Assembly (NCBI GenBank): GCA_030491005.1 | Contig: JAKZMJ010000008.1 | Location: 62,001-126,000, forward strand | DNA from: Sulfurospirillum sp. | Lineage (GTDB): Bacteria; Campylobacterota; Campylobacteria; Campylobacterales; Arcobacteraceae | DNA: 64,000 bases | Direction of reading: 5' to 3' | Shown here: positions 34,430 to 60,991 of the stretch, in pieces | How the letters are laid out: each line of letters begins with the position of its first letter | How positions within the stretch are numbered: position 1 is the stretch's first letter | The notes under the pieces: generated by a model | The model's database searches: none | What the model saw: the letters and a program-made list of their open reading frames with translations, nothing else | What the model was told of the DNA's origin: nothing | Made by a program: the position numbers and the translations under genes

Positions 34430-34463
34430 TGTAATAATAATAGATATATTAGGTTATAAATTA

Positions 34464-34931: not shown

Positions 34932-34983
34932 ACATTAATTTTTTTTATGATAAAATAAAATATAAATATTAAAGGAGTATAAG

Positions 34984-35529: not shown

Positions 35530-35546
35530 TCAATTTTTTATAATCT

Positions 35547-35580: not shown

Positions 35581-35605
35581 TATTTATAATAAATAAGAAA
35601 AGAGT

Positions 35606-37069: not shown

Positions 37070-37112
37070 CTATATTACTTATGTAAATAAATAAAGGTAT
37101 TAAAGCTATACT

Positions 37113-37745: not shown

Positions 37746-37779
37746 CCTTTATTTTAAATATTATTTGATAGAATAATTA

Positions 37780-37947
37780 TATCTAAGTAGTACGAGATTT
37801 CTATTATTGAGGGTCCAATACTATTTTTATGTATACAATTGTAATTATATGGTGTGTAGCTTTTCATTGTGTTTAAGCTCCTTAAATATAATTCTTGTGT
37901 ACAGCCTTGTCCGAAAGGGCCATTTATGGATAACGGCTACTTGGATA
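37780..37947 (+). ncRNA. ssrS: 6S RNA candidate
   Basis: The 230-base gap between hemD and purD holds a structured segment. TATCTAAGTAG at 37780-37790 pairs with CTACTTGGATA at 37937-37947 (11 pairs, one G-U), closing an RNA of about 168 bases, the size of 6S RNA. Inside are a GAGGGTCC segment and GTCCGAAAGGGCC on opposite sides and a central AT-rich open region, consistent with the 6S closing stem, internal loop and central bubble that mimics an open promoter. I recall 6S RNA next to purD in related species. An AT-rich -10-like stretch lies just upstream. 6S RNA binds the housekeeping RNA polymerase in stationary phase. Confidence 0.72.
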
Positions 37948-37975
37948 CTTTAAATATAAATTCTAAGGCTTATAC

Positions 37976-39256
37976 TTGAACATATTAATAATTGGCAGTG
38001 GTGGAAGAGAATACTCTATGGCACTTGCCATATCTAAAGAAAAACAAAATCATAATATATATTTTATGCCAGGTAATGGTGCTACGAGTACAATGGGTAC
38101 AAATATTGATATAAATGATTATGATAAATTAGCCTTTTGGGCAAAAAATAATAATATAGATTTGACAATTGTAGGACCTGAAGCTCCACTTGTTGAAGGA
38201 ATTGTTGATATTTTTAAACAAAATGATTTAGTTATTTTTGGACCAAGTGCAAAAGCTTCTAAGTTAGAGGGTTCAAAAGTATATATGAAAAACATATTAA
38301 AAAAATACAATATTCCAACTGCTACTTTTATTGAAACAACAAATATAAATGAGGCTAATAGTTTTATTGATAATATGAATTTACCAATAGTTATAAAAGC
38401 AGATGGTTTATGTGGGGGAAAGGGTGTTATTATAGCCCAAACTAAAGAAGAAGCAAAGAAAGCAACAAGAGATATGCTAAGTGGTTCTTCATTTGGAGAT
38501 GCTGGTAAATCTATAGTTATTGAAGAATTTTTAGATGGTTATGAACTATCTGTATTTGCTATTTGTGATGGTGATAATTATATTGTTTTACCAGCTGCAC
38601 AAGACCATAAAAAACTAAAAAATGAAGACATAGGACCAAATACTGGAGGAATGGGAGCTTATGCACCAACTCCATTAGTAAATGAAACACTTTATAAAAA
38701 AATTGAAAATAATGTAATTAAACCAACTTTAGAAGGAATGAGAAAAGAAAATGCTCCTTTTGAAGGTGTGTTATTTATAGGTGTAATGGTAGTTAATAAT
38801 GAACCTATTATATTAGAATATAATGTACGCTTTGGAGATCCTGAGTGTGAGGTTATCTTGCCTTTATTAAAATCTTCTGTTAGTGAGTTGTTTTATAAGG
38901 GTGCTACAAAAGATTTAAAATCTTATAAGTTAGATATAAAAAATGAATTTGGAGTTGCTGTTGTAATGGCTAGTAAGGATTATCCATATAAAAATACTGC
39001 TTCTACACAAATAATAATTGATGAAATACACGATGATGACATAGCTAATAATGCACATATATCATATGCAGGTGTAAAAAAAGAAAATAATGAATTATTT
39101 ACAAGTGGAGGTCGTATTTTAGTATGTGTTGGTTTTGGTACTAGTATTTTAGAAGCTAGAAATAGGGCGTATGCCTTATGTGGACAAATACATTTTGCTG
39201 GTAAACAGTGTAGAACTGATATAGCTTATCAAGCTTTAAAGTTGGCTAATGAATAA
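37976..39256 (+). CDS. purD: Phosphoribosylamine-glycine ligase PurD
   Basis: PurD is the ATP-grasp enzyme that joins glycine to phosphoribosylamine in purine synthesis. Visible parts are the N-terminal IIGSGGREYSMAL, the ATP-grasp segment VIKADGLCGGKGVIIA, QDHKKLKNEDIGPNTGGMGAY and the metal site EYNVRFGDPECE. The length of 426 residues is typical. The start is TTG at 37976, shortly after the 6S RNA candidate. It overlaps the RDD gene by eight bases. Confidence 0.97.
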   Translation: MNILIIGSGGREYSMALAISKEKQNHNIYFMPGNGATSTMGTNIDINDYDKLAFWAKNNNIDLTIVGPEAPLVEGIVDIFKQNDLVIFGPSAKASKLEGSKVYMKNILKKYNIPTATFIETTNINEANSFIDNMNLPIVIKADGLCGGKGVIIAQTKEEAKKATRDMLSGSSFGDAGKSIVIEEFLDGYELSVFAICDGDNYIVLPAAQDHKKLKNEDIGPNTGGMGAYAPTPLVNETLYKKIENNVIKPTLEGMRKENAPFEGVLFIGVMVVNNEPIILEYNVRFGDPECEVILPLLKSSVSELFYKGATKDLKSYKLDIKNEFGVAVVMASKDYPYKNTASTQIIIDEIHDDDIANNAHISYAGVKKENNELFTSGGRILVCVGFGTSILEARNRAYALCGQIHFAGKQCRTDIAYQALKLANE

Positions 39257-39692
39257 GAATACAAAAGATATTAACAATTTAGAATTAAGTGCTATGTCAA
39301 GAAGAACTATATCTTTTATTATAGATGACCTTTTGATTACTTTTCTTGTGATTATGATTTTATGGGATAATTTAGTACAACTTAATTGGGATTTAAACAG
39401 TGTAATGGAATTGCTAAAAGATTTTATACCATATATATTGTTTATTAAATTTTCTTATCAGAGTTTTTTTATATGGTATTTTGGTGCAACTATTGGTAAA
39501 ATTATTACAAAAATAAAAGTTATTGATTATAATACCTTGGGAAAAATATCTTTAATTTCATCAATGATTAGAGCAGGCTTAAGACTTATTAGTGAAATGT
39601 ATTTTTATTTTGGTTTTATATTTGGTTTTTTTAATGATGGACGACAAACTTTACATGACAAATTAGCAAAAACATTGGTTGTTAATGTTTAG
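39249..39692 (+). CDS. RDD-family membrane protein
   Basis: The 147-residue product has about three spans and the RDD-family pattern: an Arg near the start of the first span (SRRTISFIIDDLLITF) and the late DGRQTLHDKLAKTLVV. Substrates of this family are mostly unknown. It overlaps purD upstream and lptD downstream by eight bases each, so it belongs to the purD-RDD-lptD-PRTase-pnp run that I also recall from Helicobacter. Confidence 0.88.
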   Translation: MNKNTKDINNLELSAMSRRTISFIIDDLLITFLVIMILWDNLVQLNWDLNSVMELLKDFIPYILFIKFSYQSFFIWYFGATIGKIITKIKVIDYNTLGKISLISSMIRAGLRLISEMYFYFGFIFGFFNDGRQTLHDKLAKTLVVNV

Positions 39693-41784
39693 ATTTTTAT
39701 TTGTATCAATATTATTGTTTATTTCTTTAGAAGCTAGTCAAGAAAAATTTAATATTATTGCAAATGATGTTAAAACTATAAATAAAATTTTAACTGCAAA
39801 AGGCAATGTAGTACTCTTCTCTCCTACATATTATATGACGGCAGAAAAAATTATATATGACCAAAATAAAAATACTTTAGAACTTTTTGATGATGTTGTT
39901 ATTTTAAAAAACAATAACATACAATTACAAAGTAATTATGCTTTTTTAAATCTAAGTAATGATGATTTGTATCAAAAACCAAGTATGTTATTTGAAGAAC
40001 AAAATGAACTTTGGATTAAATCAAAAGATTCTCTAAGAAATAATAATATCGTAAATGCAAATACTTCTTCATTGTCTACTTGTGATTGTGATAATCCAGA
40101 TTGGAGTATAAAAGTTTCTAGCTCTTCTTATGACCTTGATAAAAAATGGATAAATACTTTTAATACAAGATTTTATATAAAAAATATTCCTGTATTTTAT
40201 ATTCCTTATTTTGGATTTTCAACTTCAAAAAAAAGACAAACAGGTTTTTTATCGCCAATTTTTGGATATTCTTCAGCAGAAGGTACATTTTATTCACAAG
40301 CTTTATTTATTGCTCCTGCTGATAATTATGATATTGAAATCATTCCTCAAATTAGAAATCAAAGAGGGAAGGGGATATATACTTATGTAAGATATGCCGA
40401 TTCTCCAACATCTATGATGAAATTTAAAATTGCTTACTTTAAAGAAAAAAAATCTTTTGTAAAAAAATATAATTTAAGAAGTGATGAACATTATGGTGCA
40501 GGTTTTAATTATGAAAAATATAATATTTTTTCTAAGCATTTAAATCCTAATTTAAATGCACGAGATGGACTTTATGTAAATTTAGAATATTTAAATGATA
40601 TAGAGTTTAGAACATTAGAAGAAAACAAATATAAATCTTCAACTGAAAAAAAAATTGAATCAAAAATAAATTATTATTTTGATACTTCTAAGTACTATAC
40701 AGGTGCATATTTTAGATATTATATTGATACAATTAAAAAATCAAATGCAAGTACTATTCAAGAATTACCAAAATTACAATTTCATTCTTATTCAAAATCA
40801 TTTATTTTTAAGAAACTATTATATTCATTTGATAGTAAATATACTAGTTATACTAGATCAAAAGGTTTAAATGTAAATGAGTATGAGTTTTTTGTTCCAT
40901 TTTCTTATTCATTTCCTTTGCTTGATAATTATATAAATATATCTATAAAAGAAGAATTTAGTTTTAAAAAATATGAATATTCTAATGCTGATACAAAATA
41001 TAAAGATGGAATATATGCACATAATAATACTATTTTAGAAGTAAGTTCTGATTTGATTAAAGCCTATGATAATTATTTACATACTATGAATTTAAATTTA
41101 CAATATGCACATCCAAATGATTTTAAAAAAAGTGGTGATTTATATAAAATCACAAATAACGACACTAATTTAAGTCCTTTTCCTATTACAGAAAGTAAGA
41201 AAAATATCTCTTTTGGTATTAATCAGTCTTTATATAATGATACTAATTTAAAACAAATTATAAATCACAAATTAAGGCAAACAATTGTTTATGATAAAAA
41301 AGACAATTTAAAACTTCAAAATATGGAAAATGAAATTATATATAATTATATCTTAGGTTCTGTATCAAATAAATTTCTTTATAATCATCAAGATAAAAAA
41401 TTAATAGAGAGTTCTAGTTCATTTTCATTGACATATGATAATTATTATATGAAACTTGGACATTATGTATCCAAGGAAACCATGCATTCAGGCAAAGAAG
41501 ATTTAGAATCTTATCAAGTAAGTTTAAAGTATAAACTTTCAAGAGATTATTCTATTGGATATGAAAAAAAATATGATATGATGAATCATATAACAAATAA
41601 ACAATCTTTAATACTGTATATTGAAGATAAATGTTGGAGTGCAAATATAAAGTTTCAAAGAGAAATAACAACGGCATCTACGAATAAAAAATATGGTCTT
41701 AAGCAAGATATTATATATTTTCAATTATTTTTAAAGCCTTTTATAGGTATAGAGCAAGAATATGAAATTAAGAGACATAAATGA
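39685..41784 (+). CDS. lptD: LPS assembly outer-membrane protein LptD
   Basis: LptD is the beta-barrel that, with LptE, inserts lipopolysaccharide into the outer leaflet. The product of 699 residues starts with a signal peptide (about 1-18). It has an OstA/LptA-like jellyroll (about 22-120), then a large barrel domain with many aromatic beta-strands. Cysteines are few: a CDC pair near residue 134 and a single one in EDKCW near the C-terminus, where E. coli has two adjacent cysteines, so disulfide pairing must differ. ATG 39685 is chosen. It overlaps the next gene by four bases. Confidence 0.92.
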   Translation: MFRFLFVSILLFISLEASQEKFNIIANDVKTINKILTAKGNVVLFSPTYYMTAEKIIYDQNKNTLELFDDVVILKNNNIQLQSNYAFLNLSNDDLYQKPSMLFEEQNELWIKSKDSLRNNNIVNANTSSLSTCDCDNPDWSIKVSSSSYDLDKKWINTFNTRFYIKNIPVFYIPYFGFSTSKKRQTGFLSPIFGYSSAEGTFYSQALFIAPADNYDIEIIPQIRNQRGKGIYTYVRYADSPTSMMKFKIAYFKEKKSFVKKYNLRSDEHYGAGFNYEKYNIFSKHLNPNLNARDGLYVNLEYLNDIEFRTLEENKYKSSTEKKIESKINYYFDTSKYYTGAYFRYYIDTIKKSNASTIQELPKLQFHSYSKSFIFKKLLYSFDSKYTSYTRSKGLNVNEYEFFVPFSYSFPLLDNYINISIKEEFSFKKYEYSNADTKYKDGIYAHNNTILEVSSDLIKAYDNYLHTMNLNLQYAHPNDFKKSGDLYKITNNDTNLSPFPITESKKNISFGINQSLYNDTNLKQIINHKLRQTIVYDKKDNLKLQNMENEIIYNYILGSVSNKFLYNHQDKKLIESSSSFSLTYDNYYMKLGHYVSKETMHSGKEDLESYQVSLKYKLSRDYSIGYEKKYDMMNHITNKQSLILYIEDKCWSANIKFQREITTASTNKKYGLKQDIIYFQLFLKPFIGIEQEYEIKRHK

Positions 41785-42422
41785 TTAGAGGCAAAGTATA
41801 TTTTAAAAATAGAGAAGATGCTTCACATCAACTTCTTGATATTCTACCCATTGATAATATGAAGTTAGATGAATGGATTGTCGTATCTGCTTCTAAAGGT
41901 GGATATCCTATTGCTAAAATTATTGCTGAAGTATTAGGTGCAAAATTAGAAATTTTTTTTACAGCAAAAATATTTGCTTCAAATAATAATACTTGTGAAA
42001 TAGCAATTATTAGTGAAAAGGAAGAAGTTGTAATTCATGAAGAATTGGTAAAAGCTTTTAAAATAGATTTGGATTGTGTATTTTTAAGTGCAAAAGATAT
42101 TTATGAAAATGAATTGTTAATCTCGATAAAAGAGTATAGAAATAAAAACGCTTTAGAAAATTTAAAGAATAAGAATGTTTTATTAGTTGATGAGGGCTTA
42201 AATACAGGACTTACAATGATGGCTTGTATAAAAACAGCTATTAATCTAGGTGCCAAATCAGTGTCTGTTGCTGTACCAATACTACCAAGTGCAACAATCC
42301 AAGATGTTGAATTGATTTCTGATGATTTATATTATGTGAAAAATCTTGATCATTTTATTACTTTAGATATCTATTATGAAGAATTAGATGAAGTTACATT
42401 AGAACAAATAAATAATAATTAA
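41781..42422 (+). CDS. Phosphoribosyltransferase-domain protein
   Basis: This is a type I PRTase-fold protein of the COG1926 kind. The PRPP-binding loop is VLLVDEGLNTGLTM, preceded by hydrophobic strand residues and followed by GAKSVSVAVPILPSATI. An early VVSASKGGYPIA supplies the diphosphate loop. The 213-residue length fits. The substrate is unknown. It is coupled to lptD by a four-base overlap and precedes pnp by 10 bases, an order also seen in Helicobacter. Confidence 0.85.
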   Translation: MIRGKVYFKNREDASHQLLDILPIDNMKLDEWIVVSASKGGYPIAKIIAEVLGAKLEIFFTAKIFASNNNTCEIAIISEKEEVVIHEELVKAFKIDLDCVFLSAKDIYENELLISIKEYRNKNALENLKNKNVLLVDEGLNTGLTMMACIKTAINLGAKSVSVAVPILPSATIQDVELISDDLYYVKNLDHFITLDIYYEELDEVTLEQINNN

Positions 42423-42432
42423 AGGATATTAT

Positions 42433-44613
42433 ATGTCAATAGTATGTGAATTTGAATTAAACAATAAACAAGAGGTTTTTGAATTTAATAAGGTTGCTAG
42501 ACACGCCAATGGTTCAGTTTTAGCTAGAGTAGGTAAGACTGTCATTTTAGCAACGGTTGTAAGTGAATTTGATAATCCAGTTGAGGGTGATTTTGTACCT
42601 TTAACTGTACAATATATACAAAAAACATATGCTACAGGAAAATTTTTTGGTGGTTTTATTAAAAGAGAAGGAAAGCCTAGTGATTTTGAAACATTAACTT
42701 CACGTATCATTGATAGAAGTTTAAGACCATTGTTTCCTAAAGGTTATGCTTATCCTACGACAATAACTGTTATAGTTCTAAGTGCAGATAAAGATACAGA
42801 TTTACAAATTTTAGCACTAAATGCAGCAAGTGCAGCTTTATATACCTCTGACTTACCAATTAAAAAATCAATTGCTAGTGTTAGAGTTGGAAAAATTGAT
42901 GATGAATATATTATTAATCCAACTTTAGATGAACAAAAAGATTCAAGTTTAGATTTATATATAGCTGGTTCTAAAGATGAATTACTAATGATTGAAATGA
43001 GAGCCCTTTGCTCTGAAGAGATGGTAGAAGTTGATATTGAAGCATTTTCACAAGTTCATAAAACAAATGAAATAAATGAAGAAGAATTAATAAAAGCAAT
43101 TCAAATAGCCCAAGATGCTTTAAAAGATATAAATGAAACATATGAAAAAGGTTTTGATAGTATTTGTAAAGAAAAAATAAATCTTTCTTTATCTGAATTT
43201 TTAATTGATGAAACTATTATTTCTTATATAAAAGATAATTATACTGCTAGAATTGAAGATGCTATTAAACAATTAGCAAAAAGTGAAAGAAATTCGGAAC
43301 TTAAAGAAATAGCAAAATTTATTAGTTTAGATGAATATTGCATACAAAAAGATTTAAAATTAGAAACTATTAACGAAGCTGTACAAATCACAAAAAAAGA
43401 ACTTGTTCGTTCAATGATAATCAATGATAATATAAGAGCAGATGGAAGAGCTTTAAAAGATGTAAGACCTATATCAATAGAAACTAATATTTTACCAAAA
43501 GCTCATTCATCTTGTCTATTTACAAGAGGTGAAACACAAGCATTAGTTGTTGGAACATTAGGTGGATCTAAAGATGGACAAATGTATGAAGTGTTGCAAG
43601 AAAAATCAACTTCAACAGAGAATTTTATGCTTCATTATAATTTCCCTGGTTTTAGTGTAGGGGAGGCTAAGCCTATATTTGGTGTTAGTAGGCGTGAGTT
43701 AGGGCATGGAAATTTAGCAAAAAGAGCATTAGAAGCTACAATTGATAAAAATTATTCAGATACTATTAGATTAGTATCTGAAATTTTAGAATCAAATGGC
43801 TCTTCATCTATGGCAACTGTTTGTGGTGGTTCTTTAGCTTTAAAAGCATCAGGAGTTCCCATATCTGATTTAGTTGCAGGTGTTGCTATGGGTATGGTTG
43901 AGCAAGATGGTAAATATTGTATATTAACTGATATTATGGGTTTAGAAGATCATGACGGTGATATGGATTTTAAAGTTGCAGGGACTAAAAATGGAATTAC
44001 AGCTTTACAAATGGATATAAAACTTGGGGGTATTGAATTAAATGTTTTAAAAGAAGCATTATTTCAAGCACAAGAGGCAAGACTTCATATTTTAGAACTA
44101 ATGCAAGAAGCATCTGATGAAATAATTCCAAGTGATGCTTTACCTTTAATAGAACAATTTGCAATTGATCCTTCAAAAATAATGCTAGTAATTGGAAAAG
44201 CTGGTTCAACCATAAAAGAAATCATTGAAAAATTTTCAGTAGCCATTGACTTAGATAGAACTAATGGAAATGTAAAAGTCTCAGGGGAGAATAAACAAAA
44301 TATTCTTGATGCTTGTGAGCATATTAAATCTATTTCAAATAATTCTTTTTCAAAAAAATATAATAAAACAAGTGTTGATTTTTCTAAATTATATCAAGTT
44401 GATGAAGTTTTAAAAGGAAAAGTTACTAAAATAACTGATTTTGGTGCCTTTATTTCTTTGCCTAATGGTGGCGAGGGTTTGTTACATATCTCAAAAATTT
44501 CTAAAACAAGAATTAATAAAGTTGAGGATGTATTAAGTTTAAATGAAGAAGTAGAAATAAAAATTTTAAAAGTTAATAAAGATAGAATTGAATTAGCTTC
44601 TAATAATATTTAA
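42433..44613 (+). CDS. pnp: Polynucleotide phosphorylase
   Basis: PNPase is the trimeric 3'-to-5' phosphorolytic exoribonuclease of RNA turnover. Domains in order: first RNase PH domain (about 5-225), helical linker, second RNase PH domain (about 325-550, with FTRGETQALVVGTLGG and DIMGLEDHDGDMDFKVAGT), KH domain (about 560-620, with VIGKAGSTIKEII) and S1 domain (about 650-720, with KGKVTKITDFGAFISLPNG). The length of 726 residues is typical. Last gene of the purD run. Confidence 0.97.
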   Translation: MSIVCEFELNNKQEVFEFNKVARHANGSVLARVGKTVILATVVSEFDNPVEGDFVPLTVQYIQKTYATGKFFGGFIKREGKPSDFETLTSRIIDRSLRPLFPKGYAYPTTITVIVLSADKDTDLQILALNAASAALYTSDLPIKKSIASVRVGKIDDEYIINPTLDEQKDSSLDLYIAGSKDELLMIEMRALCSEEMVEVDIEAFSQVHKTNEINEEELIKAIQIAQDALKDINETYEKGFDSICKEKINLSLSEFLIDETIISYIKDNYTARIEDAIKQLAKSERNSELKEIAKFISLDEYCIQKDLKLETINEAVQITKKELVRSMIINDNIRADGRALKDVRPISIETNILPKAHSSCLFTRGETQALVVGTLGGSKDGQMYEVLQEKSTSTENFMLHYNFPGFSVGEAKPIFGVSRRELGHGNLAKRALEATIDKNYSDTIRLVSEILESNGSSSMATVCGGSLALKASGVPISDLVAGVAMGMVEQDGKYCILTDIMGLEDHDGDMDFKVAGTKNGITALQMDIKLGGIELNVLKEALFQAQEARLHILELMQEASDEIIPSDALPLIEQFAIDPSKIMLVIGKAGSTIKEIIEKFSVAIDLDRTNGNVKVSGENKQNILDACEHIKSISNNSFSKKYNKTSVDFSKLYQVDEVLKGKVTKITDFGAFISLPNGGEGLLHISKISKTRINKVEDVLSLNEEVEIKILKVNKDRIELASNNI

Positions 44614-44715
44614 TTTTATAATTAAGTTATTTAAAAGTATTTTATTAGGCAAAACTTATTTAAATATGATATAAACTATAGTTTGTAAAAAAATATTTTA
44701 TTATATTTTGTTTTT

Positions 44716-44721
44716 TATAAT
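44716..44721 (+). promoter_or_regulatory. Candidate promoter of the che operon
   Basis: TATAAT preceded by a T-rich TTTTGTTTTT stretch, the style of sigma-70 promoters in this phylum, lies 65 bases before the cheY start in the 173-base gap after pnp. A second possible -10 is TATGAT at 44744-44749. No sigma-28 or sigma-54 consensus was seen. Confidence 0.4.
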
Positions 44722-44786
44722 ATAAAATTAATTTTTATTCTGTTATGATAAGATTAATAATTGTTAAAAAGATAAAAGGGGAATAA

Positions 44787-45155
44787 ATGGCGAAGCTTTT
44801 AATTGTAGATGATTCAACAATGCTAAGAGATATGCTAAATTATGCACTAAATGAAGGTGGATATAATGATGTTACTGAAGGTGTAGATGGTGTAGATGGT
44901 TTAAAAAAAGCCAAAAATGATATATTTGACTTAATAATTACTGATGTTAATATGCCCAATATGGATGGATTAACTTTAGTTAAGGAATTAAGACAATTAC
45001 CACAATATGCAAAAAAACCAATTTTGGTGTTAACAACAGAGAGAAGTGATGAAATGAAAGCAAAAGGCAAGGCTGTAGGAGCTACTGGCTGGATAGTCAA
45101 ACCTTTTGTTCCAGATCAATTGTTAAAAGCTGTAAATATAGTATTAAATAGATAA
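44787..45155 (+). CDS. cheY: CheY-like single-domain response regulator
   Basis: The 122-residue receiver domain has the acidic pair Asp8-Asp9, phospho-acceptor Asp53 in IITDVNMPNMDG, a Thr in LTTE and the late Lys in IVKPF. It begins a tight cheY-cheA-cheR-cheD-cheB run (14 bases to cheA). It may carry the signal to the flagellar motor or serve as a phosphate sink for CheA; which of these cannot be told from sequence. AAGGGG is the ribosome site. Confidence 0.93.
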   Translation: MAKLLIVDDSTMLRDMLNYALNEGGYNDVTEGVDGVDGLKKAKNDIFDLIITDVNMPNMDGLTLVKELRQLPQYAKKPILVLTTERSDEMKAKGKAVGATGWIVKPFVPDQLLKAVNIVLNR

Positions 45156-45169
45156 AAAAAGGTTGAATC

Positions 45170-47251
45170 ATGGCTAGTTTTGATATTACTAAATATAGAG
45201 AGATGTTTGCAGAAGAAGCTGAAGAGTTATTTGAATCAGCAGATAAGATACTTTTAGAAGCTGAAAATAACGGTATGTTAGATGATGAAGAAATAAATCA
45301 ATTATTCCGTGATGTTCATACTTTAAAAGGAAGTGGTGCATCTGTTGAACTTAGTTTATTCGCTGAATTCACACATGATGTTGAAAATATGATGGACAAA
45401 TTAAGAACGCATGAACTTAAATATCGTCCAGAAATGGCTGAAACGCTAATAGATGGTTTAGATATTATGAAAGAACTTCTTGAGCTTGAAATGCATGAAA
45501 ATTTAGATAAAGATACATTTATGTCTATGACGAAAGAGTCCTTAGATGATATTAGAAATTGTATTGCTAATAAGAATGTTAAAGTAGATACTGTAAGCAA
45601 AGACGAGAAAGTCAAAGAAAATGAAAATGAGGCTTTTAAAAACTTTAATCAATCATCAACTACTAATTTAGATAGTGATGCAGTAGGTTTTTATGATGAT
45701 GACCTGAACAAACAAATCTCAAATAACTCTTATGGCTTTTTTGAAGATGATGTAGAAAAAGTTAATACAAGTAATGAAACATATGGCTTTTTTGATAAAG
45801 ATTTATATTCTGTAAAAGTTGATGATGTTAAAATCAATTCAAATCCTGATGATAATTTTGGTTTTTTTGATGATAATATACCTGTTTCTTCATCATCTGT
45901 ATTAGAATCAAACTATGAAGGTCAAAACGAAATCGCTAAAGAAAATAGTGATGAAAGTAAGAATAAAGATACTACTGTAGCTACAACTAAAATAGCTAAG
46001 AAAAATAACAATACAATAAATATTAAAAAAACAGCAAGTAGTAATAATATAAGAGTTAATCTTGATAAAATTGATTTATTAATGAATAATGTTGGAGATT
46101 TAGTTATAACAAATGCTATGCTTACTCAATTTACTTCTACAATTGAAGATGTGAAAACTAGAAATTTAGTATTAGAAAGATTAGAATTACTAGAAAGACA
46201 TATAAGAGATATGCAAGATTCAATTATGAGTATTAGAATGGTACCAATGGAATCTGTATATTCTAAGTTTCCTAAGGTTGTAAGGGATATTTCTAAAAAA
46301 CTTTCCAAAAAAGTAGACTTTAAGCATTTTGGGGATAATGTTGAAATTGATAAAGCAATGATTGAGGGTTTAACTGATCCTTTGATGCATATTATTAGAA
46401 ACTCATTAGACCATGGTCTTGAAACTCCAGAAGAACGACTTAAAAAAGGCAAAGATGAAGTAGGTTCAATTATTATGTCAGCTGAACAAGCAAATGGTCA
46501 GATGATTATTACTGTTGAAGATGATGGATATGGTATTAATGTAGAAAAAGTCGCACTTAAAGCTTTGGATAATGGTTTAATAGATGCAAAACAATATGAG
46601 AGTATGAGTGATGATGATAAAGCTATGCTTATATTTGGAGCTGGTATTTCAACTGCTGCTGAAGTTACTTCTATATCAGGTCGTGGTGTTGGAATGGATG
46701 TTGTTAATACAAATATCCATAAATTAGGTGGTGTAATTAAACTTGATACAAAATTAGGTGTTGGTACAACAGTTACCATTATGTTACCTTTAACCCTTGC
46801 TATTCTTGATGGTCTTGATATTGCAGTTGGAGATCAGAAGTATATTTTACCTTTAAGTTCAATTGTTGAATCACTTCAACCAAGTTCAGAAATGATTAAA
46901 AAAATTGGTGATGGAAGTCAAGATTTATTGATGCTAAGAGAAGAATTTATACCTGTTGTTAGAATTCATCAATTGTTTGGTGTTAAGCCAACATTTGATA
47001 ATTTAGAAGATGGAATGTTAATTGTTGTTCAATCGGCTAATACAAAAATAGCTATTTCAATTGATGAATTTTTAAATCAACATCAAGTTGTAGTTAAACC
47101 TTTAGATAAAAATTTTAGAAGTGTTGAAGGAGTAGGGGCTGCAACTGTTAGAGGTGATGGTAGTATTGGTTTAATACTTGATGTTTTAGGAATCATTAAT
47201 GCACAGAAAAAAATTGAAAAATATGTAGATGTAAAAGAAAAAGTTTCGTAG
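45170..47251 (+). CDS. cheA: Chemotaxis histidine kinase CheA
   Basis: CheA takes phosphate from ATP onto a histidine in response to receptor arrays and passes it to CheY and CheB. Domains in order: P1/Hpt (about 5-130, His50 in DVHTLKGSGAS), a long low-complexity linker (about 135-285) without a recognisable P2 domain, dimerisation P3 (about 285-345), ATPase P4 (about 350-535, with HIIRNSLDHGLE, DDGYGI, GRGVGMDVV) and CheW-like P5 (about 540-690). No receiver domain is attached, unlike the CheAY of Helicobacter. The linker holds four copies of an aromatic-acidic motif (listed separately). The length is 693 residues. Confidence 0.96.
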   Translation: MASFDITKYREMFAEEAEELFESADKILLEAENNGMLDDEEINQLFRDVHTLKGSGASVELSLFAEFTHDVENMMDKLRTHELKYRPEMAETLIDGLDIMKELLELEMHENLDKDTFMSMTKESLDDIRNCIANKNVKVDTVSKDEKVKENENEAFKNFNQSSTTNLDSDAVGFYDDDLNKQISNNSYGFFEDDVEKVNTSNETYGFFDKDLYSVKVDDVKINSNPDDNFGFFDDNIPVSSSSVLESNYEGQNEIAKENSDESKNKDTTVATTKIAKKNNNTINIKKTASSNNIRVNLDKIDLLMNNVGDLVITNAMLTQFTSTIEDVKTRNLVLERLELLERHIRDMQDSIMSIRMVPMESVYSKFPKVVRDISKKLSKKVDFKHFGDNVEIDKAMIEGLTDPLMHIIRNSLDHGLETPEERLKKGKDEVGSIIMSAEQANGQMIITVEDDGYGINVEKVALKALDNGLIDAKQYESMSDDDKAMLIFGAGISTAAEVTSISGRGVGMDVVNTNIHKLGGVIKLDTKLGVGTTVTIMLPLTLAILDGLDIAVGDQKYILPLSSIVESLQPSSEMIKKIGDGSQDLLMLREEFIPVVRIHQLFGVKPTFDNLEDGMLIVVQSANTKIAISIDEFLNQHQVVVKPLDKNFRSVEGVGAATVRGDGSIGLILDVLGIINAQKKIEKYVDVKEKVS
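45683..45880 (+). repeat. Four GFF-acidic motif repeats in the CheA linker
   Basis: Within CheA the motifs VGFYDDDL (172-179), YGFFEDDV (188-195), YGFFDKDL (205-212) and FGFFDDNI (230-237) recur in an otherwise polar linker. The shared pattern is aromatic or V, G, F, aromatic, acidic, X, acidic-like, hydrophobic. They occupy the place where P2 would bind CheY. Confidence 0.85.
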
Positions 47252-48096
47252 TGTCTAGTCCGATTACTTTACACAATAGAGTAAAAGAAATTCTTTACTC
47301 TATAACTGGAATTACATTAACTCAAAATAAAGATATTATGATTGCTAATAGATTACATAAACTCCAAAGAGATACAAACTTCACTGGAAGTATTGAAAAA
47401 TTACTTGATCGTATTGAAGAAGGTTCTTATGTAAAAGAATTTATTAATTCTTTTACAACAAATAAAACGCATTTCTTTAGAGAAGATTTTCATTTTGTAG
47501 ACTTAAGAGATAGAGTATTACCTGATTTTATCAAACAATCTAAAGAAATAAAAATGTATTGCTCAGCTTCATCTACAGGAGAAGAGCCTTACTCTATGGC
47601 AATGACAGCTTTATGTGCTCAAGAAGCATTAAAACAAAAAACAAAAGTCAGTATAATAGCTACTGATATTGATACAAATGTTTTACAATATGCAGCAAAC
47701 GGAGTGTATAGATATTCAAAATCTTCAAAAGAATTTCCAGAATGGATTAAACCACAAAAATATTTTCAAAAAAGAGTTAAAAAGAATTTTAATGATGAAG
47801 AAATATTAATTAAAATTAAAACAGAAATTCAAAAAATGTTAACATTTCAAATTATGAATTTAAATGATTCATCGTATCCTTTTTTAGAAGAAGAATTTGA
47901 TGTTATTTTTTGTAGAAATGTTTTGATATATTTTTCAAATGAAGATCAAAATAATATTTTAAAAAAACTTTTTATACATTTAAAAATGGGAGGAACTCTA
48001 TACCTTGGACATTCTGAAAATCCTCATGACTTAGGTGATTATACAAAAAGAGTAGGGCAAAATATTTTTATTAAGACCAAGGAATTAACGTGGTAA
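47251..48096 (+). CDS. cheR: Chemoreceptor methyltransferase CheR
   Basis: CheR methylates glutamates on chemoreceptors using S-adenosylmethionine. The N-terminal helical domain (about 1-70) and the SAM-binding domain are visible, with CSASSTGEEPYSMAM, IIATDIDTNVL and VIFCRNVLIYF. The length of 281 residues is typical. GTG 47251 shares a base with the cheA stop. It overlaps cheD by seven bases. Confidence 0.95.
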   Translation: MSSPITLHNRVKEILYSITGITLTQNKDIMIANRLHKLQRDTNFTGSIEKLLDRIEEGSYVKEFINSFTTNKTHFFREDFHFVDLRDRVLPDFIKQSKEIKMYCSASSTGEEPYSMAMTALCAQEALKQKTKVSIIATDIDTNVLQYAANGVYRYSKSSKEFPEWIKPQKYFQKRVKKNFNDEEILIKIKTEIQKMLTFQIMNLNDSSYPFLEEEFDVIFCRNVLIYFSNEDQNNILKKLFIHLKMGGTLYLGHSENPHDLGDYTKRVGQNIFIKTKELTW

Positions 48097-48767
48097 TTAT
48101 TGGACATAAAGATGGAAGTATTCAAAAAACTTCTAATTTAAAATTTAATCAAAAAGTAAAAGGACATTATACTCACACTATTATAGGAGGTGAGTTTGCA
48201 GTTTGTAATGATATTGACAATATTGCATTAAAAACTTTACTTGGTTCTTGTGTGGCTATAATGTTTTATGATAAAGTTAAGAAGATAAAAGCAATGAATC
48301 ATTTTTTACTACCATCTTCATCTAATACAAATGATGATATGAAGTATGGTTTATATTCAGTTGAAGCTATGTTAAACGAAATGTATAAGCAAGGTTGTGT
48401 TAAATCCAATATTAATGTAAAGATTTCTGGTGGTGCTGATATTATGCAGTTAAAACTTTCAGCACAAAGTATTGGACATAGAAATGTTGAGTTTGCAAAA
48501 GATTTTTGTAAGGCTGAAGGATTTCCTTTGATTAGTCAGCATACAAGAGGTGAACATGGAAGATTGATTTTATTAACTGATGATTTTCAAACTTTTATTA
48601 AAGTAACTAAAAAAGCAGCAACAGATAATAAAATATTAAATGAAGAAAAAGCACTTCAAACAGAAATAGCGAAAGCTCCTGTTCTTAAAGAATATGTTGG
48701 TGCTGTTGAATTATTTTCAGATGATCATAAAAAAGAAGAACCAACAATGGAGATTGAATTATTTTAA
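48090..48767 (+). CDS. cheD: Chemoreceptor glutamine deamidase CheD
   Basis: CheD deamidates receptor glutamines and can be regulated by CheC or CheY. The catalytic cysteine is in LLGSCVAIMFYD and the histidine in MNHFLLPS, followed by KISGGADIM. At 225 residues it is longer than the usual 160-180; the extra is at both ends, with a C-terminal tail of about 45 residues. GTG 48090 overlaps cheR by seven bases. Confidence 0.93.
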   Translation: MVIIGHKDGSIQKTSNLKFNQKVKGHYTHTIIGGEFAVCNDIDNIALKTLLGSCVAIMFYDKVKKIKAMNHFLLPSSSNTNDDMKYGLYSVEAMLNEMYKQGCVKSNINVKISGGADIMQLKLSAQSIGHRNVEFAKDFCKAEGFPLISQHTRGEHGRLILLTDDFQTFIKVTKKAATDNKILNEEKALQTEIAKAPVLKEYVGAVELFSDDHKKEEPTMEIELF

Positions 48768-48791
48768 TAAGGTTGATAAGGATTATTTAGT

Positions 48792-49880
48792 ATGTATACA
48801 GTATTAATTGTAGATGATTCAGCTTCTATGAGAAGAATTCTTAAAGATATGATTAACTTAATTGATGAGTTTGAAGTAATAGATGAAGCAATTGATGCTT
48901 ATGATGCCAGAGAAAAGATTAAATTGTATGAGCCTGATTTAGTTACTATTGATATAAATATGCCTAAAATGGATGGTGTGGTTTTTCTTAGAAATCTAAT
49001 GAGACTTCATCCTATGCCAGCTGTTATTATATCTAGTGAAACTGTAAGAGGCAATGATATTTTTGATGATGGAGCAGTTGGTTTTGTTCCTAAGCCAGAA
49101 GCAAATGAAAAAATATATTTATTTGCTAATAGAATTAAAGAAACTTTATTAAATCTGACATTTTTATTAAAAAGATATACACTAAAGAAACCAAAAGCAC
49201 TAAAACAAACAATTAAATTAGTAAAAATAGATGATACTAATACAAAAATTCATCCAGATGAAGTAATTAAATTAAATTTACCACTATTTCCTGGAAAAAA
49301 AGTAATAGGCATAGGATCTTCTACAGGGGGTATTGAGTCGTTGTTGAGAGTTTTTAAAGCTTTACCATTAAATCTTCCTCCTATTCTTATTACTCAACAT
49401 ATTCCTTATGGATTTTCTAATTCTTTTGCACATCGTTTGAATGATCATTCAAAAATTTTTGTACAAGAAGCAAAAGATGATATGATTTTAGAAAATGGAC
49501 ATGCTTATTTAGCACCTGGAAATATGCACTTAAGTATTGAAAAGATTAGCAATGGTGTGTATAAAACTAAATTATTAGATACTTTAAAAGTTAGTTTACA
49601 TAAACCAAGCGTTGATGTTATGTTTCGTTCTTTAAATAATATAATAGGTAGTGGTGCTATGGCTATTATGATGACAGGTATGGGAGATGATGGTACCATT
49701 GCTATTAAAGAACTACATGATAATCAAGCTTATACTATTGCACAAAATGAAGAAAGCTGTGTCGTATTTGGAATGCCAAAAAAGGCTATAGAAGCTGGAG
49801 CTATAGATGATATAATTCATTTAGATGATATATCTAAGTATATTATAAATTTTTCGCAAGGTAAAAAGGGTATTAAGTAA
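48792..49880 (+). CDS. cheB: Chemoreceptor methylesterase CheB
   Basis: CheB removes receptor methyl groups and is activated by phosphorylation. The N-terminal receiver domain has Asp8-Asp9 and phospho-acceptor Asp54 in TIDINMPKMDG. After a linker, the C-terminal methylesterase has the serine in GIGSSTGGIESL, histidine in ITQHIPYGFS and aspartate in MTGMGDDGTIA. The length of 362 residues is typical. Last gene of the che run, with 24 bases after cheD. Confidence 0.96.
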   Translation: MYTVLIVDDSASMRRILKDMINLIDEFEVIDEAIDAYDAREKIKLYEPDLVTIDINMPKMDGVVFLRNLMRLHPMPAVIISSETVRGNDIFDDGAVGFVPKPEANEKIYLFANRIKETLLNLTFLLKRYTLKKPKALKQTIKLVKIDDTNTKIHPDEVIKLNLPLFPGKKVIGIGSSTGGIESLLRVFKALPLNLPPILITQHIPYGFSNSFAHRLNDHSKIFVQEAKDDMILENGHAYLAPGNMHLSIEKISNGVYKTKLLDTLKVSLHKPSVDVMFRSLNNIIGSGAMAIMMTGMGDDGTIAIKELHDNQAYTIAQNEESCVVFGMPKKAIEAGAIDDIIHLDDISKYIINFSQGKKGIK

Positions 49881-49900
49881 GGTTTTACTTTGATACTTAA

Positions 49901-49928
49901 AAGTTTGGAAATTATAGTTTCCAAAAGT
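49901..49928. other. Candidate chromosome dimer resolution site (difH)
   Basis: AAGTTTGGAAA (49901-49911) and TTTCCAAAAGT (49918-49928) form two 11-base arms around a six-base centre TTATAG. The arms agree at 9 of 11 positions as inverted repeats, matching the 11-6-11 geometry of Xer/dif sites. It sits 22 bases upstream of xerH, where related species are reported, to my recollection, to carry difH. Outer flanks TTTTACTT and AAGTAAAA are also complementary, so the segment could instead fold as a hairpin at the end of the che operon. Confidence 0.6.
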
Positions 49929-49950
49929 AAAATACATTAAAAGGTTAATA

Positions 49951-51003
49951 TTGAAATATCCACTTGATTTTGAATCTACATTTGAACAAACTTATATATT
50001 TTGGTTATCAAGATTTATTAGAAATAAAATCACATCTCTTTCAAATAGACAAGTAAAAGATAAAAATCGTTTAGCACAGATTTTACAAGAATTAGTAAAA
50101 GGTTTTGATTTTATTGATGATTTAAAGCTTATTATTAAAGAAGTTAGAAATATTGGAATTAATAGTATTCATGTATATTTTATTCCACTTGCAAAGTTAT
50201 ATAAGTTTGTAAAAAACTATGGTGCATCTTCAATGAAAGAAATTGATGAAGAATTATTAAGTGATTTTTTAGTTACTGAAACTAGTACTTTATCAGATGC
50301 TACAAAAAAGAATTATAGAATATCTTTAATTACATTTTTTGCATATATAGATAAACAAAATGAAGAAAAAGATGGCTTTGTATATAGATATGGTATTGAG
50401 CTAAAAAACTGGGGTGGATTAAGAGGAAAAAGTGGTACCAAACTACCCTCTTTTATGCACAAAGAAGAAATCAAAAAATTTATTAAAGGCATAGAGACAT
50501 ACCCATTTAGTGCTAAAATTCTTGCTAGAAATAGACTTATTATAAAAATCATACTTTATACAGGCATAAGAGTTAGCGAAGCTATTAATATTTATTTGAA
50601 AGATTTTAATAAAGATGGTGATGCTTATATTATACAAGTTAGAGGAAAAGGTAATAAACCAAGAGTTGTTATGATAAAAGAAGAAATTATTAAAAATGAT
50701 TTATTGTCTTGGTTTGATATAAAATCTTGTGAAAATAATTTACTTTTTTGTAATCAAAAAGGAAAAGCTCTTAGTCAAGCATATATAAGCAGTATAGTTG
50801 AAAAAATACTTTTAAGTATAGGAATTAGAAAAGAGAAAAATGGTGCTCATATGTTAAGACATTCTTTTGCCACCCTACTTTATCAAAAACATCATGATTT
50901 AATCTTAGTGCAAGAAGCATTAGGACATGCTGATATTAATACTTCAAGAATATACACACATTTTGATAAGGACAAATTAAAGAAAACTACCGATATATTT
51001 TAA
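49951..51003 (+). CDS. xerH: Tyrosine recombinase XerH
   Basis: This is a site-specific recombinase of the single-Xer type used by this phylum to resolve chromosome dimers at the terminus. The N-terminal SAM-like DNA-binding domain spans about 85-160. The catalytic domain has Arg in YTGIRVSEA, Lys in VRGKGNKPR, His-X2-Arg in HMLRHSFATLL, His in LGHADINTS and the nucleophile Tyr in SRIYTHF. The length of 350 residues fits XerH rather than the shorter XerC/D. The start is TTG at 49951. Its stop lies three bases from the stop of the convergent permease gene. Confidence 0.93.
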   Translation: MKYPLDFESTFEQTYIFWLSRFIRNKITSLSNRQVKDKNRLAQILQELVKGFDFIDDLKLIIKEVRNIGINSIHVYFIPLAKLYKFVKNYGASSMKEIDEELLSDFLVTETSTLSDATKKNYRISLITFFAYIDKQNEEKDGFVYRYGIELKNWGGLRGKSGTKLPSFMHKEEIKKFIKGIETYPFSAKILARNRLIIKIILYTGIRVSEAINIYLKDFNKDGDAYIIQVRGKGNKPRVVMIKEEIIKNDLLSWFDIKSCENNLLFCNQKGKALSQAYISSIVEKILLSIGIRKEKNGAHMLRHSFATLLYQKHHDLILVQEALGHADINTSRIYTHFDKDKLKKTTDIF

Positions 51004-51006
51004 AGT

Positions 51007-52458
51007 TTATATATTTGAGGCTTGTAAATATTTTCTTATTTTTTTTGATATATAATCTATAAATATATTTAAAAATGAACATACCAATAAAAGTAAAAAC
51101 ATTTTATCAAGTCTAAAATCTGCAAATGCTGAATCTATATAAAAACCTAAAGTTGTAACTCCTAATATTCCTAAAATAGCACTTTCTCTCATAATAATTT
51201 CCCATCTATAAAATAAATATATTAAAAACTTATTGTACATATTTGGTAAAATATAATAAAAATAAAGTTCAATTTTTTTATGTGTTGTATCTAGTCCTAA
51301 GATTTTAACATTAGTATCTTTTGCTAATAAATGTGAAATTATAGAGCCATTATGTAACATTAAAGCTAAGACAGCAGGAAGCATGGACGGACCAAACATT
51401 TGTAAAAAAATATAAGCTAAAATATACTCAGGAGTTGATCTTAAAATTACAAAAAAGATATGGTTTAAAAATATAACTTTTTTGTTTAAAAATTTTAAAC
51501 AAAGTAAAGGAAAAGCAAGTAAAGCAAAAAATGCGCTAAGAACTAAAGAGATTTGTGTTAAAAATATCGTATTAATAGTTCCTATTAATATCTCATTAAA
51601 AAAGAGTTTATCAAACCACACCATAGTAGCTTCTATACCTAAGTCATTTCTAATAGGATATGGAACAATATCATTTGTGATAAATCGTATAAAATGACTT
51701 ATATTAAAAGATGTAAAATCATTAAAGTAAAAAAAAGAAGCAAGTAATAAAAAAACAAAAGTATATTTATTTAAGCAATATTTTATACTAGCTATTAAGA
51801 TATAAAATAAAATCAGCATTAACCAAACTTCGTTATACAAGCCTTGCATAAAAGAAGAAGATAAATAATAACCTAAAGTAGGAATTCCAACAAATCCTAA
51901 AATAGCAGATGACCTTAAAGCACACTCAAAACGATAAAAGGTATAAGATAATAAAGAAGATAAGGTATTTGGTATTTTGGTATATAAGAATAATGACAAT
52001 TTTCTTTTATGATATTTATCATAAAATTTATCATCTTGTTCTAATATTTCAGCATAAACTTTTCCTAAAATTGCACTATAAGGTATGATAATTGCTAAAA
52101 GTGCAGTAATGGTATTTAATCCAAAAATTTGTAAAAAGATTAATGCCCAAAAGAGTTCATGAATTGATCGTAAAAACGCTAAAACTATTTGTACAATTCT
52201 AAAATGAAAAACTAAAGCAAATAAAAATCCTATAATTGAAGACATAAAAATAGAAAATACAGCTATAAAAATTGTGCTTAAAAATGCACTTACAAGTATC
52301 GCATAGTTATTGAATTTTAAATCAACAATTGAGAAAAGAAATTTATTTATTAAGCTTGAAGTATTTGTCGTACTAATTGAAAAATCAGAAAAATAAAAAG
52401 AAATTAAAGCCGTAAGTATAAATAATATACTTACTTTACTATGTCTACTTATAAACAT
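51007..52458 (-). CDS. Double PhnE-type ABC transporter permease
   Basis: This 483-residue protein contains two homologous permease units in tandem (about 45-225 and 280-470). Each has about five to six spans and a similar late motif: RFECALRSSAILGFVGIPTLGYYLSSS in the first and RWEIIMRESAILGILGVTTLGFYIDSA in the second. PhnE permeases usually contain one unit and dimerise; here both halves are in one chain. It is the last gene of a three-gene importer, 12 bases after the ATPase gene. Confidence 0.9.
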   Translation of the reverse strand: MFISRHSKVSILFILTALISFYFSDFSISTTNTSSLINKFLFSIVDLKFNNYAILVSAFLSTIFIAVFSIFMSSIIGFLFALVFHFRIVQIVLAFLRSIHELFWALIFLQIFGLNTITALLAIIIPYSAILGKVYAEILEQDDKFYDKYHKRKLSLFLYTKIPNTLSSLLSYTFYRFECALRSSAILGFVGIPTLGYYLSSSFMQGLYNEVWLMLILFYILIASIKYCLNKYTFVFLLLASFFYFNDFTSFNISHFIRFITNDIVPYPIRNDLGIEATMVWFDKLFFNEILIGTINTIFLTQISLVLSAFFALLAFPLLCLKFLNKKVIFLNHIFFVILRSTPEYILAYIFLQMFGPSMLPAVLALMLHNGSIISHLLAKDTNVKILGLDTTHKKIELYFYYILPNMYNKFLIYLFYRWEIIMRESAILGILGVTTLGFYIDSAFADFRLDKMFLLLLVCSFLNIFIDYISKKIRKYLQASNI

Positions 52459-58480: not shown

Positions 58481-59389
58481 TTAAAATGTTCTTTTTATCA
58501 TAGAATTAATAAGTTCTTCTAAAAAAATATTATCTTCACCTTTAAGTGCTTCAAGTGCTTTTTTTCCTAAAGAAACAGCTTGAGCTATAGAATCTTCTAA
58601 AGCTTTTGTTTTTTGCATTTCTTCTTTTATCCATGACATATCTTCTTTACTCAAAAAAACTTTAAATAAAGATTTTAATTTATCTTTATTTTCTGTTCTT
58701 TCATATAATAATAAATAAGGAATAGTTACTTTTCCATCAATAAAATCAAACATAGAAGGTTTTCCCAAAGCTGTACTATCTTGAGTAATATCTAAAATAT
58801 CATCAATCATTTGAAATGCAAGTCCAAGGTTTTTTCCAAAAAGTGCATATTTATCAGAGTCTTTAGATGCTAAAAGAGCAGCTGCTTTTGAACTAGCTTC
58901 TATTAGAGTGCCTGTTTTTTTATAAATCATTTCATAATATTTATCGTATGAAGTATTAAATGTATTTGCTAATTCAATATCCATCATCTCACCAATGCTT
59001 AGTTGCGTTACAGCATTTGCTACAATATAAGCAATGTTTTGATTCATTAATGCTAATTGTGAAAATGCTATAGAATATAACATATCACCTAATAAAATTG
59101 ATATTTTATCACCAAATTTGGCATTTATTGTAAGCTTACCTCTTCTTGTATCTGCTTTATCAATAACATCATCATGTAATAGTGATGAAGTATGAATCAT
59201 CTCAATTATTGCACACAATTTTAAAGACTCAGGAGAAATTCCTGCAATTTTTAAAATCAATTGACTTCTTAACATTTTGCCAAATGGAAGTGAATTAAAT
59301 AAATCAATACATTGTTGATTATCACAAGAAATTATATATTCATTTATTTGTTGCTTTATTATTTGTAATTGAGGTGTCAAGTTTTTCAT
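58481..59389 (-). CDS. ispB: Long-chain polyprenyl diphosphate synthase
   Basis: This trans-prenyltransferase builds the isoprenoid side chain for quinones. The first aspartate-rich motif is LLHDDVIDKADTRRG and the second QMIDDILDITQD; GKMLRSQL gives the early substrate-binding arginine. The residues before the first motif (HTSSLLHDD) resemble long-chain (octaprenyl-type) rather than farnesyl synthases. The length of 302 residues fits. It overlaps the DUF2018 gene by four bases. Confidence 0.9.
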   Translation of the reverse strand: MKNLTPQLQIIKQQINEYIISCDNQQCIDLFNSLPFGKMLRSQLILKIAGISPESLKLCAIIEMIHTSSLLHDDVIDKADTRRGKLTINAKFGDKISILLGDMLYSIAFSQLALMNQNIAYIVANAVTQLSIGEMMDIELANTFNTSYDKYYEMIYKKTGTLIEASSKAAALLASKDSDKYALFGKNLGLAFQMIDDILDITQDSTALGKPSMFDFIDGKVTIPYLLLYERTENKDKLKSLFKVFLSKEDMSWIKEEMQKTKALEDSIAQAVSLGKKALEALKGEDNIFLEELINSMIKRTF

Positions 59390-59688
59390 GAGTCCAATCT
59401 ACAAACAATCTCACCAGTAAATTCAATATATAAACCTTTTTTCATTTGTTCAACTTCATCTAAATTTTCCAAGATATATTGTTTAATCATTTTATTAATA
59501 TCAAAATCATCATTTTTATCTTTTGATAATATCAATTCCATAACTGCATATTTTTCAATAATCTTATCCATTTCATCTTCAACTATTTCACTATTAGCCA
59601 ATTTTGCAATATCAAAAAATTTTGATTTTGGAGTTCCTGAAAAAACATCATCTTCATCTTCGTTTAGCCATTTGTTAATATCACTCAT
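59386..59688 (-). CDS. DUF2018-family protein
   Basis: This is a 100-residue acidic, helical protein. The family, restricted to Campylobacterota, includes HP0242 of Helicobacter pylori, known for an intertwined knotted dimer; its function is unknown. Matching features are the small size, the acidic N-terminus (NKWLNEDEDDVF), the helix-rich middle and the same position beside the polyprenyl synthase and hemA genes. It is four bases downstream of hisD. Confidence 0.8.
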   Translation of the reverse strand: MSDINKWLNEDEDDVFSGTPKSKFFDIAKLANSEIVEDEMDKIIEKYAVMELILSKDKNDDFDINKMIKQYILENLDEVEQMKKGLYIEFTGEIVCRLDS

Positions 59689-59692
59689 TATT

Positions 59693-60991
59693 TTATTCCT
59701 TATTTTCTAGTCTTGCTTGTACTGATAGTGCATGTGCATTTAAACCCTCAGCATTTGCTAAAAGCATACAAGCTTCACCTAGCTCATTAATTGCTTGTTT
59801 TGAAAAATTTATAATTGAAGATTTTTTCATAAAATTTTCAACTCCTAATGGACTATAAAACTTAGCAGTACTCCCTGTTGGTAAAGTATGATTTGGTCCT
59901 GCTATATAATCTCCAATTGCCTCAGGAGTATTCTCACCTAAGAATATAGCACCTGCATGTTTGATTTTACTTAATAAATCAAAAGGGTTTTTAGTCATTA
60001 TTTCTAAGTGTTCAGGTGCTATTTCATTCATAAGTTTAATTGCTTCATCCATAGAAGAGGCAACTATTATATATCCTCTTTCATCTATTGATTTTTGTGC
60101 AATATCTTTTTTGGTTAAGTTCTTTAAATATCTTTTAACTTCAAAAGATGTATTAATAGCTATATTTTCATCAGTAGTAATCATAATACTACTTGCCATC
60201 TCATCATGTTCAGCTTGTGATAAAAGATCAATAGCTAAATATTTTGGTTTTGAAGTTTCATCACTTAGTATTCCAATTTCAGAAGGACCTGCAATCATAT
60301 CTATATTTACTTCGCCGTATACCATTTTTTTAGCAGTTGCCACATATATATTACCAGGTCCTGTTATTACATCAACTTTTGGTATGCTTTGTGTGCCATA
60401 AGCCATAGCCGCAATGGCTGATGCACCTCCAACTTTAAAAGCTTTTTTTATTTTACATATATGACAGGCTGCTAGAAGTAAAGCACTAACTTCATTATTA
60501 AGTGCAGGAGTGCATACTATTATATCTTTAACACCTGCAACTAAAGCTGGAATAGCATTCATAAGTAGGGAGCTTGGATAGGTAGCTTTTCCTCCTGGGA
60601 TATATAATCCAGCTATATCCATGGGAGTTAATTTTTGACCTATTATCGTGCCATTATCTTCAAAATCAATCCAAGATTTATTTACTTGTTTTTCGTGATA
60701 TGCTTTAATTCTATCATAGGCTAAATGCAAGGCATTTTTTAAGTTATCATCTAAAGTATTATATGCTTCTTCCATAGAAACTTGCGATATTTCAAGAGCT
60801 TCATCGTCTGGTACTTCCCAATTATCAAACTTTTTTATGTGCTTTTTTAATGCTTCATTTCCATTTAATACTACATCATCTATAATATTTGAGACTATTT
60901 TAGAAACATTTTTGATATCAGTTTTTGATCTTTGTAATATCTTATTAAATTCTTCTTGAAAATTTGCTTCTTTCGTTTTTATGATTTTCAT
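59693..60991 (-). CDS. hisD: Histidinol dehydrogenase HisD
   Basis: HisD oxidises histidinol to histidine in two NAD-dependent steps with a bound zinc. Signatures are DIAGLYIPGGKATYPSSLLMNAIPA, ITGPGNIYVATAKK, AGPSEIGILSD, LSQAEHDEMAS and the zinc/substrate segment APEHLEIM with GPNHTLPTGS. The length of 432 residues is typical. It overlaps aroK by four bases. Confidence 0.97.
   Translation of the reverse strand: MKIIKTKEANFQEEFNKILQRSKTDIKNVSKIVSNIIDDVVLNGNEALKKHIKKFDNWEVPDDEALEISQVSMEEAYNTLDDNLKNALHLAYDRIKAYHEKQVNKSWIDFEDNGTIIGQKLTPMDIAGLYIPGGKATYPSSLLMNAIPALVAGVKDIIVCTPALNNEVSALLLAACHICKIKKAFKVGGASAIAAMAYGTQSIPKVDVITGPGNIYVATAKKMVYGEVNIDMIAGPSEIGILSDETSKPKYLAIDLLSQAEHDEMASSIMITTDENIAINTSFEVKRYLKNLTKKDIAQKSIDERGYIIVASSMDEAIKLMNEIAPEHLEIMTKNPFDLLSKIKHAGAIFLGENTPEAIGDYIAGPNHTLPTGSTAKFYSPLGVENFMKKSSIINFSKQAINELGEACMLLANAEGLNAHALSVQARLENKE

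Follow-up and report, generated by a model that had tools for sequence, protein, structure and literature searches.

A probable new, horizontally exchanged specificity variant of the XerH/difH recombination pair in Arcobacteraceae

Xer recombinases and their dif sites are usually regarded as a conserved housekeeping pair, and in streptococci a single recombinase, XerS, is linked to its own site, difSL. The closest described relatives of the pair reported here are XerH and difH of Helicobacter pylori and Campylobacter jejuni (PMC2731167, PMC3325230, PMC5241119), where likewise a single recombinase of 350–362 aa is found with an AT-rich 11-6-11 site that has a CTATAA-like centre and a left arm longer by one base, and that often adjoins xerH near the replication terminus; the present locus shares the single recombinase, the layout of the site and the position beside xerH. 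The difH consensus of 24 epsilon-proteobacteria is TTTTGTATTGAAAA CTATAA TTTTCAAACTTTT (PMC3325230 Table 2), and positions 19 and 32 of the 50-mer are invariant across all 24 species tabulated (PMC3325230). The inner five base pairs are read base-specifically by XerH in the crystal structure, the four-helix bundle of H. pylori XerH (aa 12–88, with N73/T74 within it) going into the major groove (PMC5241119), and recombination in H. pylori is abolished by changes in the same arm core (PMC3325230).

In the window, i.e. the whole stretch of 64,000 nucleotides analysed here, a site of this kind occupies the 70-bp gap between cheB, ending at 49880, and xerH, whose TTG start (49951) follows 22 bp on (Table 1). 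The plus-strand letters of 49901–49928 are AAGTTTGGAAA-TTATAG-TTTCCAAAAGT, the arms being complementary at 9 of 11 positions, so that the 11-base inverted arms and 6-base centre that a preliminary description had noticed 22 bases upstream of xerH are borne out. The left arm is one base longer (CTTTTGG, right GTTTGG), with the conserved T (T4, PMC5241119) kept. The extended 26-mer is single in the 2.69-Mb genome, even with three mismatches allowed, and its reversed control is absent; the looser pattern TTGRAAA-N6-TTTYCAA has the same site as its sole match. Chance would yield about 0.001 such sites per genome for core plus centre; for the palindrome by itself the figure is about 0.005. One copy per genome and an intergenic position are as in known XerH/difH systems, and no better canonical difH was found elsewhere in the genome, the next best having two mismatches.

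Table 1. Features at and around the XerH/difH locus (window coordinates)
Feature	Position	Strand	Remarks
difH type B, 28 bp	49901..49928	minus	left arm ACTTTTGGAAA, CTATAA, right arm TTTCCAAACTT; consensus from PMC3325230
difH-B left arm	49918-49928	minus	minus-strand reading
difH-B centre	49912-49917	minus	minus-strand reading
difH-B right arm	49901-49911	minus	minus-strand reading
xerH-B, single-chain Xer tyrosine recombinase, 350 aa	49951..51003	plus	TTG start; 5jjv/5jk0 best match; PF18644 + PF00589
H74 and V75 codons, best separators of type-B and type-A XerH	50170..50175	plus	N73/T74 in H. pylori; in the first turn of helix D
cheB, left neighbour	48792..49880	plus	cheB-difH-xerH is the commonest order in the family
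Phosphonate-type ABC permease (predicted), first minus-strand gene past the switch	51007..52458	minus	sequence resemblance only
Orientation flip, plus to minus	51004..51006	no strand	contig GC-skew maximum at 50,845

Alignment with the published sites showed an identical CTATAA centre and the same layout, but a core that differs from all 24 tabulated sites. The window core is TTGGAAA..TTTCCAA (here "type B") as against the published TTGAAAA..TTTTCAA, a symmetric change (A to G in one arm, T to C in its partner) that affects positions 19 and 32 of the 50-mer; the invariant TGAAAA..TTTTCA of the 24 published sites thus reads TGGAAA..TTTCCA. Both changed base pairs lie within the inner five that XerH reads base-specifically (PMC5241119). 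Since the change is symmetric, the site represents a variant type and not canonical difH, and since protein, layout and copy number agree with XerH/difH and the invariant core alone departs from it, the pair was filed as a variant of that system. This also explains why a search with an H. pylori-type half-site gave no match. The earlier reading as ordinary difH was therefore right about the kind of site but missed that it belongs to a different, horizontally exchanged specificity type. Given that core changes abolish recombination in H. pylori, type B is expected to function only with a co-adapted enzyme.

The enzyme is a true XerH. It matches H. pylori XerH (5jjv/5jk0) with an E-value of 7.7e-102, and the complete RHRHY set, residues R207, H300, R303, H326 and Y335, is invariant in alignment A1, with R213, H309, R312, H335 and Y344 as the H. 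pylori counterparts. XerC and XerD models scored it at 148.6 and 144.9, under their cut-offs of 335 and 330, which places it outside XerCD/dif, and a search of G000 for a dif pattern of the Sulfurimonas/Sulfurovum type returned 3-mismatch noise only. It is the only strong XerH in the window genome, further matches being weak and integrase-like. No close XerH-B relatives were found on plasmid or phage records, where all matches were below 60% identity. Whole-chain superposition of the AlphaFold model on 5jk0 gave a TM-score of only 0.45, because the C-terminal half of the model is poor (pLDDT below 50 over 308–340), although the match is still unambiguous; the structural reading was accordingly limited to the confident N-terminal helices. 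Family f20 was considered as a group of XerCD users with a second system and rejected, each of its type-B-site genomes having its own XerH; all other f20 genomes sampled but one have XerH too, and only noise was seen there for the Sulfurimonas-type dif.

XerH genes were gathered from genomes of the family (97 of 104 positive), genomes of the order and named GTDB genomes, and 400 bp upstream of each was scanned. The sites are of three types: A, the published core; B, TTGGAAA..TTTCCAA; and C, TGAAAACATAAATTTTCAC. The type-B core recurs next to 36 distinct proteins, all of the same XerH clade, so that the dif-like site beside xerH of the preliminary description is upheld by its difH centre and layout, by its neighbour and by this recurrence. 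Exact type-B sites were present in 17 of 399 genomes of the order, each with an XerH gene of the B clade or a closely matching one; named carriers are Poseidonibacter lekithochrous, P. ostreae, Malaciobacter halophilus, Arcobacter sp. CECT 8985 and Sulfurospirillum arcachonense. The type-C site (L113–L123; G084, G085, G036, G086, G087, G050, G052, G069, G100) is found with XerH proteins of a deeper clade, the sister group of the Sulfurospirillum enzymes. One contig of a metagenome-assembled genome titled Helicobacter pylori PMSS1 (L182) carries an Arcobacteraceae-like XerH, and its bin is probably mislabelled.

When alignment columns were ranked by the difference between type-B and type-A enzymes, window positions 74, 75 and 70 came out on top, with 72, 78 and 65 also listed; the first three lie at or just before the DNA-binding helix D (predicted at 71–90). 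Among distinct proteins with a recognisable adjacent site, His74 goes with a type-B site in 36 of 36 cases and with A or C in none, while 76 proteins with another residue (73 Asn, 2 Ala, 1 Ser; 79 by a looser count) have A or C sites. Residue 74 and site type therefore agree in 112 of 113 to 115 of 116 proteins. The sole mismatch is the A-type enzyme of G090, with Asn74 beside a type-B site, and is accounted for by an insertion that split this enzyme's own adjacent site. In G033 and G034, an XerH that lies within the B clade has Ser74 and Gly72 (G033:C1:1766903, L224; G034:C1:265953, L225), and the only CTATAA-centred difH in each genome, 32–35 kb away, belongs to type A, so that specificity seems to have reverted. 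Since B arose once and reverted once, the link between residue and site comprises two evolutionary events together with the location of the residue, and is thus a strong lead rather than proof. Residues 74 and 75 are the likely specificity residues and would directly contact the changed base pair; the other B-specific residues (70, 72, 146, 214 and 323) could contribute.

In the tree built from 140 distinct XerH proteins, type-B sites all fall on one clade (SH-aLRT 98), except for that beside the A-type XerH of G090. This clade is spread across many genera and a second family, and types A and B are mixed inside genera. The flanking cheR-cheD-cheB genes require at least four forced changes of type, whereas the XerH tree requires one origin. 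A-type genomes and B-type genomes resembling the window share the order cheB-difH-xerH-m6, and cheB-difH-xerH is probably ancestral in the family; in Poseidonibacter, Malaciobacter and G037 the same gap contains the B module in inverted orientation. As judged from sequence comparison, the incongruent trees and the two intermediates described below show that the type-B pair moved between genera and families as one module, displacing the resident A-type pair at cheB-difH-xerH.

The flanks of the first intermediate, G090, are collinear with G094 at 84–85%. Here xerH-B and difH-B are flanked on one side by a left half of difH-A (TTAGTCTTGAAAAC) and on the other by a whole difH-A, the layout expected for integration at dif with one site restored, and both site types and both enzyme types are retained. 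Loss of xerH-A and difH-A from G090 would give the order of the other Poseidonibacter genomes. In the second, G003, a 20,200-bp insert breaks difH-A at the border of centre and right arm, and its flanks are 93–94% identical in G007, where difH-A is whole. The insert is a gamma-mobile-trio island in which GmtY, GmtZ and GmtX, each scoring over its NCBIfam cut-off, are followed by difH-B and xerH-B and then by 6A-MBL and Shango-like SngABC defence genes (L262:172-20000 with L263; record 1264672–1284871). The resident xerH-A of G003 is an intact orphan, no difH-A centred on CTATAA or CTTTAA being left elsewhere in the genome.

Other elements at difH sites independently point to these being targets of recombination. 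Prophage-like elements break difH-A in G035 (L253:2872-12200) and G013 (L252:5851-17860), with a half-site at one end and a full difH at the opposite end; one encodes a packaging-ATPase-like protein and a putative tailless-phage capsid-like protein, the other a replication-type protein and a lysozyme in inverted duplication. In G360, difH-B beside xerH-B is broken by a 3.8-kb insert whose ORFs resemble glycosyltransferase, radical-SAM and lysozyme genes (L228:8147-11940). Complete difH-B sites were present on two IMG/VR contigs (L259:14218-14237, L260:108-127), both from one tailed phage with terminase and DNA polymerase, the site lying some 0.1 kb short of where the available sequence stops. 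A 4.85-kb contig of Poseidonibacter ostreae (L067; G093:C131) carries a second B-clade XerH, adjoined by a divergent xerH fragment, and a B-type site with the centre GCTAGA (one strand); it is possibly a plasmid resolution module. At the window site, no half-sites, second site or element genes in the layout of integrative mobile elements exploiting Xer (IMEX) were found flanking it, and it is intact between cheB and xerH.

The converging gene blocks from which a replication terminus had been proposed are present: 18 genes run on the plus strand from 31490 to 51003 and genes from 51007 on are on the minus strand, with one small plus-strand ORF at 59369–59710. Along the 200-kb contig C8, cumulative GC skew is highest at 112,845, which is window position 50,845 and 0.93 kb from the site, and across 20 kb the skew is +0.19 to the left and -0.14 to the right. 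The contig has several other sign changes of skew, however, and the assembly consists of 33 unordered contigs. In two complete relatives the skew has no peak at the homologous site: the local maximum is 52 kb from it in G083 and more than 99 kb away, at or past the edge of a 200-kb stretch, in G037. For A. butzleri the published figure is 34.7 kb (PMC2731167). The homologous module lies at 0.49–0.55 of the record in the complete relatives G003, G083, G037, G079, G078 and G091. With a local skew peak and a strand switch on one side and noisy relatives on the other, a location at the terminus is likely rather than proven, and its support is local.

The pair in the window is best explained as a chromosomal dif with an XerH of a distinct type B that has spread as a transferable matched module (probability about 0.85). 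By homology with H. pylori XerH/difH, two XerH molecules would bind the arms of the 28-bp site, and XerH would pair two sites on a chromosome dimer, with crossover within the 6-bp CTATAA giving monomers at division. In type B the A-T pair that is otherwise universal at arm position 9/22 is G-C in both arms, a symmetry that is directly visible, and the enzyme has His-Val for Asn-Thr at the start of helix D, where the correlation with site type is observed and contact with the changed pair is presumed. As enzyme and site would have to change together, transfer of a matched pair seems the likely route of spread. How the replacement came about is more tentative: an element may have inserted in the host dif, destroying it and substituting its own recombinase and dif, so that the host then depended on the element. 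The island of G003 would be a form of this element with defence genes and the 1.2-kb insert of G090 its minimal form; the pair in the window would then represent the state that becomes fixed once the old gene has been lost.

Neutral drift of an ordinary difH by two bases, XerH-B still being active on the canonical site, would fit the conserved centre and outer arms and the tolerance of XerH to changes outside the core (PMC5241119), but is unlikely, since the change is symmetric and inside the sequence-read core, is fixed in all 36 His74 enzymes that have an adjacent site and absent from all other XerH lineages, reverts jointly with residues 72 and 74 in G033 and G034, and coexists with the A-type site and enzyme in G090. 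A resolution module of a plasmid or island, in place of a chromosomal dif system, is suggested by the copy within the gamma-mobile-trio island and by the second XerH-B with a different centre in P. ostreae; that the window genome (97% complete) has one XerH and one difH, no adjoining element genes and the usual family locus, and that the pair sits near mid-record in six complete relatives, makes this very improbable. It is scarcely credible that the inverted repeat is a cheB terminator or an xerH operator and no recombination site: its position between the two genes and a possible hairpin would allow it, but the 20-bp core is retained with changed neighbours, in inverted modules and kilobases from xerH (G360, G385), sites of types A and B are interrupted by insertions where centre and arm meet, and a tailed phage carries the site.

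The chromosomal type-B reading provides, within one family, two naturally differing pairs, likely specificity residues, a reversal and genomes between states. Joint change of a recombinase and its single chromosomal target thereby becomes testable, as does any drive by dif-using phages and islands, and a matched recombinase/site pair would be added whose differences amount to one base pair in each arm and two main residues. Used as a query, the published difH core would overlook the dimer-resolution site in about one third of the sampled Arcobacteraceae. If the element takeover is true, a switch of type would exclude phages that integrate at the old dif.

XerH/difH itself, type-A sites in Arcobacter and IMEX have already been reported (PMC3325230, PMC5495459, PMC5357621); in the searched open literature, neither a second difH specificity type nor replacement of an xerH/difH module was found described. 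XerS belongs to a different protein family, its model NF003462 scoring the window XerH at 82.9 against a cut-off of 267. Compared with H. pylori and C. jejuni, the window pair has the arm core GGAAA/TTTCC for GAAAA/TTTTC and His-Val for Asn-Thr in helix D, and its type, unlike theirs, has been transferred among genera as a module. The difH sites of Arcobacter butzleri, A. nitrofigilis and A. thereius (PMC3325230, PMC5495459) are from the same family but are type A, and related A-type genomes share the cheB-difH-xerH order of the window. Half-sites like those left by IMEX on insertion in dif, such as the CTX, VGJ and TLC phages, the gonococcal genetic island and Legionella LME-1 (PMC5357621, PMC9765430), occur here at difH-A (G013, G035) and difH-B (G360). 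In the published IMEX cases compared, the host pair is used or mimicked, whereas the inserts of G003 and G090 carry their own, differently specific recombinase and site.
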